Assembly: GCA_002841685.1 (NCBI GenBank)
Contig: PHAM01000082.1
Coordinates: forward strand, 1-6,231
Length of the DNA: 6,231 bases
Source of the DNA: Elusimicrobia bacterium HGW-Elusimicrobia-2
GTDB lineage: Bacteria; CG03
Reading direction: 5' to 3'
Positions within the stretch are counted from its first letter, which is position 1; every line of letters starts with the position of its first letter. The notes below the pieces were generated by a model that was not told the DNA's origin, made no database searches, and saw nothing but the letters and a program-made list of their open reading frames with translations. Shown in pieces: positions 742-6,184 of the stretch. The position numbers were made by a program, and so were the translations under genes.

Positions 742-1956
742 ATGAAAGTTAATTTACTTAAAGAAGCAAAGAAAGAAGAAAAAAATGCCGTTAAGTTCCT
801 GAGGGATCTGGTCGCCATTCCCGGCGAATCCTGCGGAGAGAAAAAAGTCATTGAGAGGATCCGCAAGGAGATGCTCAAGACGGGTTTTGACAGCGTTAAT
901 ATTGACCCGATGGGAAACATCCTCGGCAAAATCGGCCGCGGCAAACGCATCATCGCCATGGACGCGCACATAGATACCGTCGGCGTGGGCGACATCAAGC
1001 AGTGGAAATGGGACCCTTACAAAGGCAAACTTGAAAAAGGCTTAATTTACGGACGGGGCGCGGTGGACCAGCTCGCCGGAATGGCGGGGATGGTTTACGG
1101 GGTGAAGCTCCTCAAAAAACTCAATCTTATGGATGATTTCACGCTTTACGTTGTCGGCAGCGTCCAGGAAGAGGACTGCGACGGTTTGTGCTGGCAGTAC
1201 ATAATCAAAGAAGGTAAATTAAAACCCGAATGCGTTATTATAACCGAACCCACAAATCTTGACCTGTACATAGGACAGAGGGGAAGAATGGAGATAGGCG
1301 TGACGACAAAAGGCAAAGCCGCGCACGGCTGCATGCCGGATCGTGGAATCAACGCTATTTATAAAATGAGCGGCGTAATTAAAGAAATAGAAAAGTTGAA
1401 TGACCGCTTAAAGAAAAACGCTTTTCTGGGGAAGGGTACGGTTGTCGTGAGCTATATTAACTGTAAAACACCGTCAATGTGCGCCGTGCCGGACGAATGT
1501 TATATTCAGCTCGACAGGCGTCTGACGACGGGCGAAACAAAAGAAATCGCTCTGCGCGAGGTGCGTGAAGCCGTAAAGAGGGCAGGCGTCGAGGCCGAGG
1601 TGAAACTACTCAAATATGACAAACCGAGCTGGAAGGGTTTGAAATATCCGACGGAAACTTATTTTCCGACATGGATACTCCCGAAGAATCACAAACTCCT
1701 CAAGGCCGCCGAAAAAACATATCTAGGGGCACTGGGCAAAAAAGCAAAAGTTAGCAGGTGGATATTCTCAACGAACGGTGTCGCCACAATGGGAATGTTC
1801 AAAATACCGACGCTCGGATTCGGGCCCGGTAATGAAAAATACGCGCATTCGGTCAATGATCAGGTACCGGTGGAGCATCTTGTCAAAGCCGCCGCGTGGT
1901 ACGCGCTTTTCCCGAAGACATACTGCCAAATAACAAAAAAGAAGAAACATGCGTGA
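742..1956 (+). CDS. ygeY: YgeY-type M20 family metallohydrolase
   Basis: This 404-residue protein is a full-length member of the M20 zinc amidohydrolase/peptidase family and resembles YgeY, a putative hydrolase found with selenium-dependent hydroxylase genes. The visible metal and catalytic residues are in the expected order: DAHID (His76 ligand, Asp78), GRGAVDQ (Asp109, bridging), QEED (Glu143 base, Glu144 ligand), ITEPT (Glu169 ligand) and KYAHSVND (His369 ligand). A dimerisation/lid segment lies around residues 180-300, with AHG at His195. The substrate of YgeY is not firmly established; amide or carbamoyl-amino-acid cleavage is typical of the wider family. The start is set by AAAGGAG (728-734) seven bases before the ATG. 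It is the first gene of a four-gene operon, 26 bp ahead of ygeW. No signal peptide is seen, so it is probably cytoplasmic. ArgE, DapE and peptidase relatives are alternatives, but the YgeW neighbour favours YgeY. Confidence 0.88.
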   Translation: MKVNLLKEAKKEEKNAVKFLRDLVAIPGESCGEKKVIERIRKEMLKTGFDSVNIDPMGNILGKIGRGKRIIAMDAHIDTVGVGDIKQWKWDPYKGKLEKGLIYGRGAVDQLAGMAGMVYGVKLLKKLNLMDDFTLYVVGSVQEEDCDGLCWQYIIKEGKLKPECVIITEPTNLDLYIGQRGRMEIGVTTKGKAAHGCMPDRGINAIYKMSGVIKEIEKLNDRLKKNAFLGKGTVVVSYINCKTPSMCAVPDECYIQLDRRLTTGETKEIALREVREAVKRAGVEAEVKLLKYDKPSWKGLKYPTETYFPTWILPKNHKLLKAAEKTYLGALGKKAKVSRWIFSTNGVATMGMFKIPTLGFGPGNEKYAHSVNDQVPVEHLVKAAAWYALFPKTYCQITKKKKHA

Positions 1957-1982
1957 AGCTGTAGGAATAGGAGAATAAAAAA

Positions 1983-3188
1983 ATGAAAGGAAAAGAACCC
2001 ATCTTTAAACTGCGTTCGGAGTTAAACTATCTGAACCGTCTGGACTTTGATATGTACAGAAAGGATTTTCTGCTAACGTGGGAAAAATCACAAAATGATA
2101 TTCTCGCGACGCTGACGCTGGCTCAGATAATGAGAACCATGTACAGGGATAATGTAGCGATGCGCGCTTTTCAGACGGGCCTCGCCATATCGCAGTTCCG
2201 CGATAAATCCACGAGGACGCGTTTCGCTTTCTCATCGGCCTGCAATATGCTGGGCCTCGGCGTTGAGGATGTGGACGACGAAAAAACTCAGGTGGCGCAC
2301 GGCGAGACCGTCAGGGAAACCGCCAACATGATATCTTTTCTGAGCGAGGTCATAGGCATCCGCGACGACATGTACATAGGCCGCGGACACACCTTCATGA
2401 AGGAAGTGGCGGGGGCTCTTGACGAGGGTTTCAAGGAGCGGGTGCTCAACATGAGGCCGGCCGTCATAAACCTTCAGAGCGACCTCGACCACCCGACCCA
2501 GACGATGTCGGACCTCCTGCACCTTCAGAATTATTTCGGCGGCATTAGCAATCTCAAGGGCAAAAAAATTGTTATGAGCTGGGCTTATTCTCCGAGCTAC
2601 GGAAAACCGCTCTCGGTGCCGCAGGGGATAATAGCCCTGATGACCAGGTTCGGCATGGATGTGACGCTGGCGCACCCCGAGGGTTATGAGATGATGGATG
2701 ATATCGTCGATCTGTCGGCGAAACAGGCGAAGGAATCCGGCGGTTCTTTTAAGGTGTCGCACGATATGAAAGACGCGTTCAAAGACGCGGATATTGTGTA
2801 TCCCAAGAGCTGGGCGTCATTCAGCGTGATGAAAGAAAGAACCAAACTGCTTGAGAAAAACGATTCGGCTGGCCTCAAGGATCTTGAAAAGAAATGCCTC
2901 ACCGAAAATGCCAAACACAAGGACTGGCTCTGTGATGAAAAGATAATGTCCACCACCAAAGACGGGGAAGCTCTTTATCTCCATTGTCTGCCTGCCGATG
3001 TGCAGGGTTTGAACTGCAAGGCCGGAGAGGTGACGCATGGCGTTTTTGAGAAATACCGCATTGAAACATATAGGGAAGCCCGCTATAAACCTTTCGTGAT
3101 AGCGGCGATGATCATGCTCTGCTGCTTCAGGGATCCCGTGGCCGTGATGGAGGGTTTTTACAGAAACAGCAAGAACCGCGCCGGATGA
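1983..3188 (+). CDS. ygeW: Knotted carbamoyltransferase YgeW
   Basis: This 401-residue cytoplasmic enzyme belongs to the aspartate/ornithine carbamoyltransferase superfamily. The N-terminal domain binds carbamoyl phosphate through FRDKSTRTRF (STRT 76-79) and DHPTQT (170-174). The C-terminal domain holds HCLPADV (334-340). Segments such as AHGETVRETANMISF, WAYSPSYGKPLSVPQG and DADIVYPKSWA are characteristic of E. coli YgeW and set it apart from ordinary ornithine or aspartate enzymes. The length is close to that of E. coli YgeW (about 396). The family is related to acetylornithine and succinylornithine carbamoyltransferases, which have a knotted fold. The physiological second substrate of YgeW is unknown. 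The start is chosen by TAGGAG (1968-1973), nine bases upstream of the ATG. The stop overlaps the ClC start by four bases (ATGA), so translation is probably coupled. No carbamate kinase is visible in the window to use carbamoyl phosphate. Confidence 0.92.
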   Translation: MKGKEPIFKLRSELNYLNRLDFDMYRKDFLLTWEKSQNDILATLTLAQIMRTMYRDNVAMRAFQTGLAISQFRDKSTRTRFAFSSACNMLGLGVEDVDDEKTQVAHGETVRETANMISFLSEVIGIRDDMYIGRGHTFMKEVAGALDEGFKERVLNMRPAVINLQSDLDHPTQTMSDLLHLQNYFGGISNLKGKKIVMSWAYSPSYGKPLSVPQGIIALMTRFGMDVTLAHPEGYEMMDDIVDLSAKQAKESGGSFKVSHDMKDAFKDADIVYPKSWASFSVMKERTKLLEKNDSAGLKDLEKKCLTENAKHKDWLCDEKIMSTTKDGEALYLHCLPADVQGLNCKAGEVTHGVFEKYRIETYREARYKPFVIAAMIMLCCFRDPVAVMEGFYRNSKNRAG

Positions 3189-4534
3189 AAAAAAGGCTCG
3201 CCGAGAGCTCCATACTTTTCATAAGCATAACAAAGTGGGTAGTGCTCTCGTCAGTTATCGGTCTTGTCGTAGGGCTTTCCACTTCTCTTTTTCTGAAACT
3301 GCTTGAGGCGGCTTCTTCTTTCAGCGGCAGTTACAATTATTATTTTCTCGCATTGCCGGCGGCTATGTTTCTGAGCGCCCTTGTTATAAAGCTCGCTCCC
3401 GGCGCTGAGGGCCACGGCACGGAGAAAGTGATAGAGGCCGTACACAAAAGGAGCGGGAAGATGTCTCCCGCGATCGTGCCCGTGAAACTTTTAGCCACGC
3501 TTTTAACTATCACCGCCGGCGGTTCCGTGGGGAAAGAGGGCCCCTGCGCCCAAATCGGCGGCGGCTTATCCTCTATCATCGCGGATCTGTTCCATTTTGA
3601 CGACAGGGACAGGAGAAAGCTCGTGATCTGCGGCATCAGCGCGGGTTTTGCTGCCGTTTTCGGCGCGCCCGTGGCCGGAGCCATCTTCGGCGTTGAGGTG
3701 CTCCTTGTGGGCGGGATACTCTACGAGGTGCTGCTGCCGAGCATCATTGCCGGTATCGTATCGTATGAGATCGCTGTTTCAATGGGCGTCTCATATTTCT
3801 ATAAGCACATAGATATGGCCGGCAGGTTCACGCCCGCTGTGCTTTTTCAAATGTTTGCCGCGGGAATATTCTTCGGACTGTGCGCCACAATATTCATTGA
3901 ATTTCTGAACAGGGGGAAAAGGGCCGCGTCAAAAATCCCGCTGTCCTCGCCCTTAAAAGGTTTTGCCGGCGGCCTTATCCTTATCGCCCTGACTTTTGTG
4001 TTTTCCAAACAATACCTCGGCCTGGGTCTCAGTACGATTGAGGGCGCTCTGCACGGGGCGAAAATCGTCTGGTACGCTTTCCTGGTCAAAATAATTTTTA
4101 CGAGCATCACGCTCAATATGGGCGGTTCGGGCGGAATAGTGACGCCTCTGTTTTTTGTCGGAGCCAGCGCCGGCACTCTTTTTGCTTCTTTAAGCGGCAT
4201 CGATCCGGGGCTCGGCGCGGCTGTCGGAATGGTGAGCGTTCTCGCCGGAGCCGCGAACACGCCGATTGCCGCCGTGATACTTTCCATGGAGCTTTTCGGC
4301 GCCGAGGTGGTGCCGATGTGCGCCGTGGCCGCCGGCGTGAGTTTTCTTATGACGGGGCACAGGAGCGTTTACCCTTCGCAGAAAATAGCCCTTAACAAGT
4401 CAGCTTCCATATATGTGAAGCATGGCGAAACGCTTGAAGATATTATACCCATAGCGAAAATAAAACTCGGTAGCGTTACGGACAGGCTGCTGAATATCAT
4501 AAAAAAAATATACGAATGGAGGAAAAAATGTTGA
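3185..4534 (+). CDS. ClC-family chloride channel or proton/chloride antiporter
   Basis: This 449-residue polytopic inner-membrane protein has about ten or more hydrophobic segments. ClC hallmarks are present: AEGHGTEKVIEAV (73-86, a divergent form of the GSGIP selectivity region), GGSVGKEGP with gating Glu118, the helix pair around ISAGFAAVFGAPVAGAIFGVE, and GSGGIVTPLFF (314-324, the GxFxP-like region). A tyrosine in GHRSVYPSQ (Tyr396) probably matches the central tyrosine gate. There are no C-terminal CBS domains. The CLC-F fluoride signature is not seen. At the position of the internal proton glutamate of ClC-ec1 (E203), my alignment by eye places Val172 (FGVEV), as in channel-type ClCs. 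The start overlaps the ygeW stop (ATGA) and has no clear Shine-Dalgarno, so it probably depends on coupling. Its operon position suggests anion or charge balance for the neighbouring enzymes, which is inference. The transported ion cannot be read from the sequence. Confidence 0.9.
   Translation: MKKRLAESSILFISITKWVVLSSVIGLVVGLSTSLFLKLLEAASSFSGSYNYYFLALPAAMFLSALVIKLAPGAEGHGTEKVIEAVHKRSGKMSPAIVPVKLLATLLTITAGGSVGKEGPCAQIGGGLSSIIADLFHFDDRDRRKLVICGISAGFAAVFGAPVAGAIFGVEVLLVGGILYEVLLPSIIAGIVSYEIAVSMGVSYFYKHIDMAGRFTPAVLFQMFAAGIFFGLCATIFIEFLNRGKRAASKIPLSSPLKGFAGGLILIALTFVFSKQYLGLGLSTIEGALHGAKIVWYAFLVKIIFTSITLNMGGSGGIVTPLFFVGASAGTLFASLSGIDPGLGAAVGMVSVLAGAANTPIAAVILSMELFGAEVVPMCAVAAGVSFLMTGHRSVYPSQKIALNKSASIYVKHGETLEDIIPIAKIKLGSVTDRLLNIIKKIYEWRKKC
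4518..4522 (+). promoter_or_regulatory. Ribosome binding site deciding the dehydrogenase start
   Basis: GGAGG lies inside the last codons of the ClC gene, five bases before the ATG at 4528. An upstream in-frame ATG at 4516 overlaps this site and has no Shine-Dalgarno of its own, so 4528 is the better start. The resulting ATGTTGA junction overlaps the ClC stop by seven bases and indicates translational coupling. Confidence 0.7.
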
Positions 4535-5679
4535 ACAAAGCTGAAAGTGCGCCGTGGCGTGCGAAATCCGCCTGCGGCGGAAAAAACGCGATGACCATGA
4601 TGAGCGCGGATATGCTCGAAAAATTTATGAAAGATGTTTTTATCGGTCTGGGTGTTAAAGACGAAGACGCCGCTCTCTGCGCCGGGGTTCTCATAACTGC
4701 TGATAAAAGGGGAATAGATTCCCACGGAATAGCGCGGCTCAAAAACATTTATTATGACAGGATAAAAGAGGGGACACAGAAAGCGACGGGCGATTTCGAG
4801 ATACTGAAAGAAAGCCCGACGACGGCTCTTCTTGACGGGAAAGACGGCATGGGTCACGCCATATCCAAAAAAGCCATGGATATGGCAATACAAAAAGCAA
4901 AAGAATACGGTACGGCCATGGTGGCGGTTAAAAACTCCACCCATTACGGCATAGCCGGTTATTATGTCATGCAGGCCGCGGAGTCGGATATGATAGGCAT
5001 AACCGGTACCAACGCCAGGCCCTCTGTCGCCCCGACATTTGGCGTGGAAAACATGCTCGGCACGAATCCCCTGACGATAGGCCTCCCTACCGACGAGGAA
5101 TTTCCTTTTGTCATTGACTGCGCCACTTCCATGGCCCAGAGAGGGAAAGTGGAAACATACAACCGCCTCAACAAAAAACTGCCGGAAGGCTGGGTCATAG
5201 GGCCCGACGGTTTATCTAAAACCGACGCTTCCGCCGTGCTGGATGATCTTGTGAGCGGCGCTGCGGCGCTTACGCCTCTGGGCGGTATAGGGGAAGAAAC
5301 GGCCGGATATAAGGGCTACGGCTACGGCGCGGCCGTCGAGATCCTTTCGGCGGCTCTTCAGAGCGGGCCCTTTCTTAAAATGCTTTCGGGCATAAAGGAC
5401 GGTAAAAAAGTTCCCTATCATCTGGGACATTTTTTCATAGCGGTAAACATATCGTCTTTCGTCGAGCCCGCTCTTTTCAGAAAAACCGCGGGGAATATAC
5501 TCAGGAATCTCCGTGCGTCAAAAAAAGCGCCGTGCCGCGACAGGATATACACAGCCGGAGAAAAGGAGCATCTCGCATGGCAGGAGCGCAAAAAGACAGG
5601 CATCCCCGTCACGGATAAAACCATAGCCGAGATGAAAGTGATGCGCGACGAGCTGGGCCTTGCCGGCGGCGACTTTTAA
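4528..5679 (+). CDS. Ldh2-family NAD(P)-dependent 2-hydroxyacid dehydrogenase (malate/lactate/ureidoglycolate type)
   Basis: This 383-residue enzyme belongs to the Ldh2/malate-L-lactate dehydrogenase family, which also includes ureidoglycolate dehydrogenase AllD and is unrelated to classical Rossmann LDH/MDH. Diagnostic segments are ADKRGIDSHGIARL (His66, Arg70), KNSTHYGIAGYY (His139), ITGTNARPSVAPTFG, MLGTNPLTIGLP, FVIDCATS (Asp197) and GGIGEETAGYKGYGYG (Lys262). Then come GHFFIAVNISSF and a C-terminal RIYTAGEKEHLAWQERK tail typical of one subgroup. It would interconvert a 2-hydroxy acid and a 2-oxo acid in the cytoplasm; the substrate is not determined by these motifs. The conserved domain begins near residue 22 (MTMMSADMLEKF), so the first 21 residues are an unusual extension that contains a hairpin repeat. 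A second start at 4591 would give a 362-residue protein of more usual length but lacks a good Shine-Dalgarno. It is the last gene of the operon. Confidence 0.9.
   Translation: MLNKAESAPWRAKSACGGKNAMTMMSADMLEKFMKDVFIGLGVKDEDAALCAGVLITADKRGIDSHGIARLKNIYYDRIKEGTQKATGDFEILKESPTTALLDGKDGMGHAISKKAMDMAIQKAKEYGTAMVAVKNSTHYGIAGYYVMQAAESDMIGITGTNARPSVAPTFGVENMLGTNPLTIGLPTDEEFPFVIDCATSMAQRGKVETYNRLNKKLPEGWVIGPDGLSKTDASAVLDDLVSGAAALTPLGGIGEETAGYKGYGYGAAVEILSAALQSGPFLKMLSGIKDGKKVPYHLGHFFIAVNISSFVEPALFRKTAGNILRNLRASKKAPCRDRIYTAGEKEHLAWQERKKTGIPVTDKTIAEMKVMRDELGLAGGDF
4567..4581. repeat. Perfect small palindrome inside the dehydrogenase leader codons
   Basis: TCCGCC (4567-4572), a three-base TGC loop and GGCGGA (4576-4581) form a perfect 6-bp hairpin, followed by an A-run. 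Just before it, CGCC GT GGCG (4550-4559) forms a shorter one. Both fall in the 21-codon extension ahead of the conserved dehydrogenase domain. It could be a dispersed palindromic element inserted in the reading frame, or an mRNA hairpin affecting start choice. Its dispersal cannot be judged from one copy. Confidence 0.5.
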
Positions 5680-5704: not shown

Positions 5705-6184
5705 TTATTTCTTAGGGGTGATTCTTTCCGTTATCTCTTTGCCCGTTTTCACTGAAACGCCTGTGATATCTATGTATATCACCTTCGGCAGAGGGAAAGA
5801 GGATTTAGATTTAATATATATCTGACTGACAACGGACTCTTCGCCGTTAATATACATAAGCGCCCGCGCCGTGGTTTCGTCTTTATCTCTTGTTATCACG
5901 GCTTTGATCGGGTTTTCAGGGAGGGATTTGACATAGAACCCAACTTCTTCCCTCGTGGCTGTTGTTATTTCTATGCCATAACCTATTTTCTTTTCAATAG
6001 TGTTTAAGGGTGCCGTTGTCGTGCCTTTCTTTCCGTACATGATCCAATAGATGTTCACGGGGTCGTTTATGGAGAAGCCCGCTTCATCCAGCGCCGCCTC
6101 GTAAATGACCTGATTCTCGTTCAGGCTGCGCGTTATTATATGCAACGCATTAAATAGATGCGCATAAGGATTTAAGGGTTTCAT
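5705..6184 (-). CDS. DUF4833-like protein of unknown function
   Basis: This 159-residue protein resembles the DUF4833 family. Matching traits are an N-terminal strand HIITRSLNENQVIYEA, then DPVNIYWIMYG (about residues 41-51), NTIEKKIGYGIEI (about 61-73), and a C-terminal half with SQIYIKSKSSFP and IDITGVSVKTGKEITERI. These proteins look like small beta-rich domains, and many relatives carry an N-terminal export signal. No function is established. The copy here starts directly at the domain, with no signal peptide. The in-frame stop TAA shortly upstream of the ATG at 6184 excludes a longer version in this frame, and no strong Shine-Dalgarno is visible. It is convergent with the operon, so it is unlikely to share its regulation. 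The family call is from recalled consensus features. Confidence 0.7.
   Translation of the reverse strand: MKPLNPYAHLFNALHIITRSLNENQVIYEAALDEAGFSINDPVNIYWIMYGKKGTTTAPLNTIEKKIGYGIEITTATREEVGFYVKSLPENPIKAVITRDKDETTARALMYINGEESVVSQIYIKSKSSFPLPKVIYIDITGVSVKTGKEITERITPKK

Follow-up and report, generated by a model that had tools for sequence, protein, structure and literature searches.

Does a ygeY-ygeW pair that stands without ygeX function without diaminopropionate ammonia-lyase, or does it belong to a longer pathway in which this lyase has been replaced? The question is raised by the window analysed here, a stretch of 6231 bp that makes up the entire contig C36 of an Elusimicrobiota MAG (genome G000; 1.78 Mb, 96% complete). 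In E. coli K-12 the urate cluster is ordered ygeW-ygeX-ygeY-hyuA-yqeA ... ygfK-ssnA-ygfM-xdhD, the order of the first five genes being confirmed in NC_000913. The sequence-only reading of the window, which set it against the E. coli order ygeW-ygeX-ygeY, proposed that YgeY and YgeW, kept together without ygeX, may form a functional pair that does not need the lyase, and it regarded their substrates as unknown.

The latter view no longer stands for E. coli, whose two enzymes were characterized when two studies of 2025 resolved the reductive urate degradation pathway (PMC12507026 is one of them, PMC12990295 a commentary on both). YgeW performs the phosphorolysis of one ureido group of 2,3-diureidopropionate, YgeY hydrolyses the remaining one, its substrate being albizziin or 3-amino-2-ureidopropionate, to give 2,3-diaminopropionate, and YgeX cleaves 2,3-diaminopropionate into pyruvate and ammonia; the two studies disagree on which ureido group YgeW removes first.

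Gene organization of the window

The window carries five genes:
742..1956, plus strand: ygeY, M20-family hydrolase of 404 aa, with an RBS-like AGGAGA upstream
1983..3188, plus strand: ygeW, knotted carbamoyltransferase of 401 aa, 26 bp past ygeY
3185..4534, plus strand: ClC-type chloride channel gene (PF00654, 244.5 bits)
4516..5679, plus strand: Ldh_2-family dehydrogenase gene (PF02615, 398 bits)
5705-6184, minus strand: DUF4833 gene, the last of the window

The coordinates, order and gap of ygeY and ygeW agree with those given by the earlier reading, which was also right that the window holds neither ygeX nor any further cluster member (hyuA, ssnA, ygfK, carbamate kinase). The start of the ClC gene overlaps the stop of ygeW (ATGA), and its position between ygeW and Ldh_2 is peculiar to G000, the three other genomes of the genus (G001-G003) running from ygeW straight to Ldh_2. 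Because it is missing at the same place in three genus mates, the ClC gene is probably a lineage insertion, outside the module. In each of the four genomes of the genus the Ldh_2 gene, whose true start in the window may be at 4591-4600, comes after ygeW, the neighbours being 85-87% identical in G001-G003, and the 12,359-bp contig of G002 has the same ygeY-ygeW-Ldh_2 content. No other cluster gene was found over 9.0-9.9 kb past ygeW in the longer contigs of three genomes of the genus, nor in the 2.2 kb ahead of ygeY in one genome of the genus. A promoter scan gave no excess relative to shuffles.

Family assignment of YgeY and YgeW

Both proteins score well above the NCBIfam cut-offs of their families, with 570.8 bits for YgeY (NF009555, cut-off 321) and, for YgeW, 630.8 bits with NF005538 (cut-off 453) and 607.7 with TIGR03316 (cut-off 500). 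They are respectively 53% and 59% identical to their E. coli K-12 counterparts. The M20 metal-site motifs of YgeY are DAHIDT (74), GAVDQ (106), QEEDCDG (142) and YAHS (367), and the expected metal-site residues are invariant across the aligned YgeY sequences; YgeW has the motifs STRTR (76), HPTQ (170) and HCLPAD (334), and its best PDB match is 3q98 (545 bits). In a maximum-likelihood tree, the YgeW of the window and that of E. coli fall in one clade with a support of 100/100, separate from the OTC/AOTC/ATC-like carbamoyltransferase paralogues and from the PyrB of the same phylum. YgeY was also scored as ArgE/DapE (199.3 bits, cut-off 217.6) and YgeW as N-acetylornithine carbamoyltransferase (AOTC; 125.3 bits, cut-off 288), and both assignments were rejected. 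Family scores and tree therefore answer the objection, raised by the sequence-only reading against itself, that the two proteins could group with ordinary ArgE/DapE and AOTC. Judged by their sequences, ygeY and ygeW are true members of their families.

The constancy of Ldh_2 after ygeW in the genus, together with the fact that its family includes the ureidoglycolate dehydrogenase AllD, would be in agreement with a role of the pair and the adjacent Ldh_2 in a different pathway, for example of an allantoate/ureidoglycolate-like type combining an M20 amidohydrolase, a dehydrogenase and a carbamoyltransferase. We consider this very improbable, as the Ldh_2 protein stays under every NCBIfam cut-off (242 against 500 for sulfolactate dehydrogenase, 208.7 against 356 and 197.7 against 496 for the two AllD models), the best matches of YgeY include no AllC model, and Ldh_2 lies beside ygeW in no other genus of the surveyed loci. 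The oxamate carbamoyltransferase of E. coli, moreover, is AllFGH and not YgeW (PMC11326118, in its available text).

Distribution of the ygeY-ygeW order

The survey covered the best 80 loci encoding YgeW relatives; because these were taken from a longer list, the sample is skewed towards relatives of the window. Among the 70 judgeable loci, ygeY immediately preceded ygeW in the same orientation in 37, the other arrangements being reverse (4), convergent (4) and non-adjacent (25). The ygeX gene was absent from the locus in 35 of these 37 tandem cases, and from 35 of the 42 loci whose flanks reached 5 kb or more in both directions. At the genome level, a YgeX match at E 1e-30 was missing in 40 of the 48 searched genomes having a related YgeW. 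Neither G000 nor its three genus mates have a YgeX, the best match in these four genomes reaching 28 bits; for G000, the best match to TIGR03528 (27.3 bits) is a ThrC-like protein discussed below. The claim that the pair is kept together without ygeX is thus borne out well beyond this contig. The arrangement is nevertheless no oddity, ygeY followed by ygeW without ygeX being the commonest order in the sample.

Two loci show additional features: two tandem YgeY-related M20 genes, 37% and 65% identical to the references, precede ygeW in L048:7549-9954, and NuoF-like and hydrogenase-like genes adjoin ygeW-ygeY in L034:5510-9371 (G010).

Pathway genes on other contigs

A loss of the whole cluster, as the reduced module could suggest, is contradicted by the rest of the genome, where SsnA, an XDH-type Mo hydroxylase, a PreT-PreA-like reductase and carbamate kinase sit on other contigs, the pathway genes being spread over at least five. 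SsnA is encoded on C39 (468.2 bits, cut-off 455.5) and is present in 58 of the 65 genomes searched. C56 carries the large subunit of the XDH-family Mo hydroxylase and a 2Fe-2S subunit, next to a cytosine-deaminase-like gene, and C15 the PreT-PreA-like fusion reductase (184 bits to PreA against 335), family membership not fixing the substrate of either enzyme. There are many GltD-like matches to YgfK in G000, none above the cut-off. An 8-oxoguanine deaminase is found on C45 and an adenine deaminase on C60.

The carbamate kinase on C2 (TIGR00746, 399.8 against 358) adjoins two YgeW paralogues. Two tandem YgeW paralogues with a carbamate kinase were noted in L041:5363-8443, L164:5687-12228, L165 and L217:4663-16729, and in other Elusimicrobiota the paralogue pair and carbamate kinase adjoin SsnA, a YgeY-like M20 hydrolase and 8-oxoguanine deaminase. 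From its gene content, this association looks like a second ureido-cleaving cassette.

The genome-wide search suggested by the earlier reading thus recovered ssnA and carbamate kinase; it found no YgeX, and of hyuA only a stub. No full-length HyuA or other hydantoinase was found in G000. On C13 (L179:1484-1570), the first codons of a hyuA-like gene (VFDIFIKNG) join directly to its last part, and the break point is a short sequence found at both ends in the copy of the genus mate G003, where the gene is full-length (L161:6474-7817). On this comparison, the stub could reflect a real loss or strain variation. A fragment on C66, considered as HyuA, was rejected, as it scores as an amidohydrolase/deacetylase N-terminus.

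The deletion stub, and the dispersal of the pathway genes over separate contigs, would be expected if the pathway were decaying in the genus, ygeX and hyuA having simply been lost and ygeY-ygeW remaining as a leftover or as a salvage pair that converts imported ureido compounds into carbamoyl phosphate and diaminopropionate. We find such a relic unlikely: YgeY and YgeW are both intact and 89-95% identical within the genus, with invariant active-site motifs, and the genes for two PLP enzymes, one ThrC-like and one CysK-like, are retained in all four members.

Compared with E. coli K-12, G000 shares the YgeW and YgeY orthologues as well as SsnA, a Mo hydroxylase and carbamate kinase, but it differs by the order ygeY-ygeW, the absence of a detectable ygeX in the genome, the scattering of the genes, the PreT-PreA-like reductase in the place of YgfK and the deleted hyuA-like gene. 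A PreA/PydA-type reductase in the place of YgfK is also a trait of the Clostridioides difficile urate cluster (UacX, UacY). According to the available text of PMC12507026, C. difficile keeps ygeX and has UacY in place of YgeW, whereas G000 keeps YgeW and lacks ygeX. Closer by taxonomy, Elusimicrobia bacterium ADurb.Bin231, of the same phylum, has the ygeY-ygeW tandem (locus L048) without ygeX in the locus or the genome; unlike G000, it clusters the pair with hyuA, ssnA, carbamate kinase and the ThrC-like and CysK-like genes.

Candidate enzymes for the lyase step

Comparison of all ORFs of the ygeX-less loci revealed two recurrent PF00291 families, each in 18 loci. One is ThrC-like, about 415 aa long, and carries a zinc ribbon at its N-terminus; the other is CysK-like and measures about 490 aa. 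Of the 43 loci that contain ssnA or carbamate kinase, 20 have only the ThrC-like gene, 8 only ygeX and none both (Fisher p = 0.004, uncorrected for relatedness). The order XDH, ThrC-like, CysK-like is repeated among the Bacteroidota loci. The ThrC-like gene occupies the middle slot in L075, L087, L100 and L111; in L225 this same position between XDH and CysK-like is held by a true diaminopropionate ammonia-lyase (NF006058, 406.6 bits against 276). The exclusion is not genome-wide, since G033 combines a ygeX with a ThrC-like gene, the latter next to carbamate kinase and the two on different contigs.

The ThrC-like protein of G000, encoded on C53, groups with the cluster-borne copies. It exceeds the NCBIfam cut-off for threonine synthase (TIGR00260) and its gene sits amid housekeeping genes, two features which suit an authentic threonine synthase, or else a neighbour with a housekeeping function, diaminopropionate then being used otherwise (export, transamination, or the CysK-like protein alone). 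This seems to us somewhat doubtful, because a second, distant ThrC of the genus (on C65 in G000, 298 bits for TIGR00260) can serve threonine synthesis, and urate-type clusters from several phyla repeatedly contain the ThrC-like gene.

The CysK-like protein of G000 is encoded on C89. PF00291 scores it low (54.8 bits), which alone suggested its absence, but an alignment search gave 831 bits. It is present in 46 of 48 YgeX-negative and 7 of 11 YgeX-positive genomes (Fisher p = 0.009, uncorrected for relatedness), and also in Elusimicrobiota without YgeW. A plain substitution of YgeX by this protein was therefore rejected in favor of a role as pathway companion. In one Elusimicrobiota genome without YgeW, SsnA adjoins the CysK-like protein (L216:544-3347, G007). 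Its structure model (pLDDT 84, pTM 0.88) matches the folds of O-acetylserine sulfhydrylase, cyanoalanine synthase and CBS over residues about 31-415, with Z of about 28-31 and 18-28% identity. The modelled fold supports a compatibility with aminoacrylate chemistry and would fit beta-elimination or beta-replacement on a beta-substituted alanine, diaminopropionate for example, and it names no substrate. Overall, the distribution of the two families suggests that the ThrC-like protein fits better as a YgeX substitute than the CysK-like one.

Proposed pathway and significance

We consider it on balance probable that the pair removes the two ureido groups in a urate-type pathway with scattered genes, in which the lyase for diaminopropionate would have been replaced. 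By analogy with E. coli, phosphate would receive one carbamoyl group from 2,3-diureidopropionate through YgeW of G000, and the carbamoyl phosphate so formed would supply carbamate kinase for ATP formation; YgeY would hydrolyse the other ureido group, giving 2,3-diaminopropionate. The latter would be cleaved by a PLP fold-type II enzyme other than YgeX, most likely the ThrC-like protein, perhaps together with the CysK-like one. The absence of clustering between the genes of the window and the remaining pathway genes in G000 speaks against this proposal, and the pathway may be incomplete, because the hyuA step is without an intact candidate in the assembly. Nevertheless, lyase replacement by other PLP enzymes appears to fit the gene neighbourhoods better than the lyase-free pair first envisaged.

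The pair is hence a real component of a known pathway, of ordinary appearance, and its gene order is common. The apparent novelty, from the comparison of gene neighbourhoods, lies in the absence of ygeX across many phyla and in the two PLP families encoded next to these genes; searches of the open-access literature turned up no account of clusters that lack YgeX and carry ThrC-like genes. As a tentative generalization, which we do not yet hold as probable, a YgeX-less variant of anaerobic urate degradation could be widespread (Elusimicrobiota, Bacteroidota, Bdellovibrionota, Verrucomicrobiota and others), with the ThrC-like protein replacing the lyase, the uncharacterised CysK-like protein participating, and the pair of the window included.

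Surveys of urate degraders that expect ygeX beside ssnA would overlook many lineages, and where YgeX is marked by PF00291 alone, as in PMC12507026, the ThrC-like and CysK-like enzymes are indistinguishable from it. Should the replacement be true, there would be a reaction to test for two uncharacterised groups of PLP enzymes, and the breakdown of purines without oxygen would reach further into uncultured phyla.
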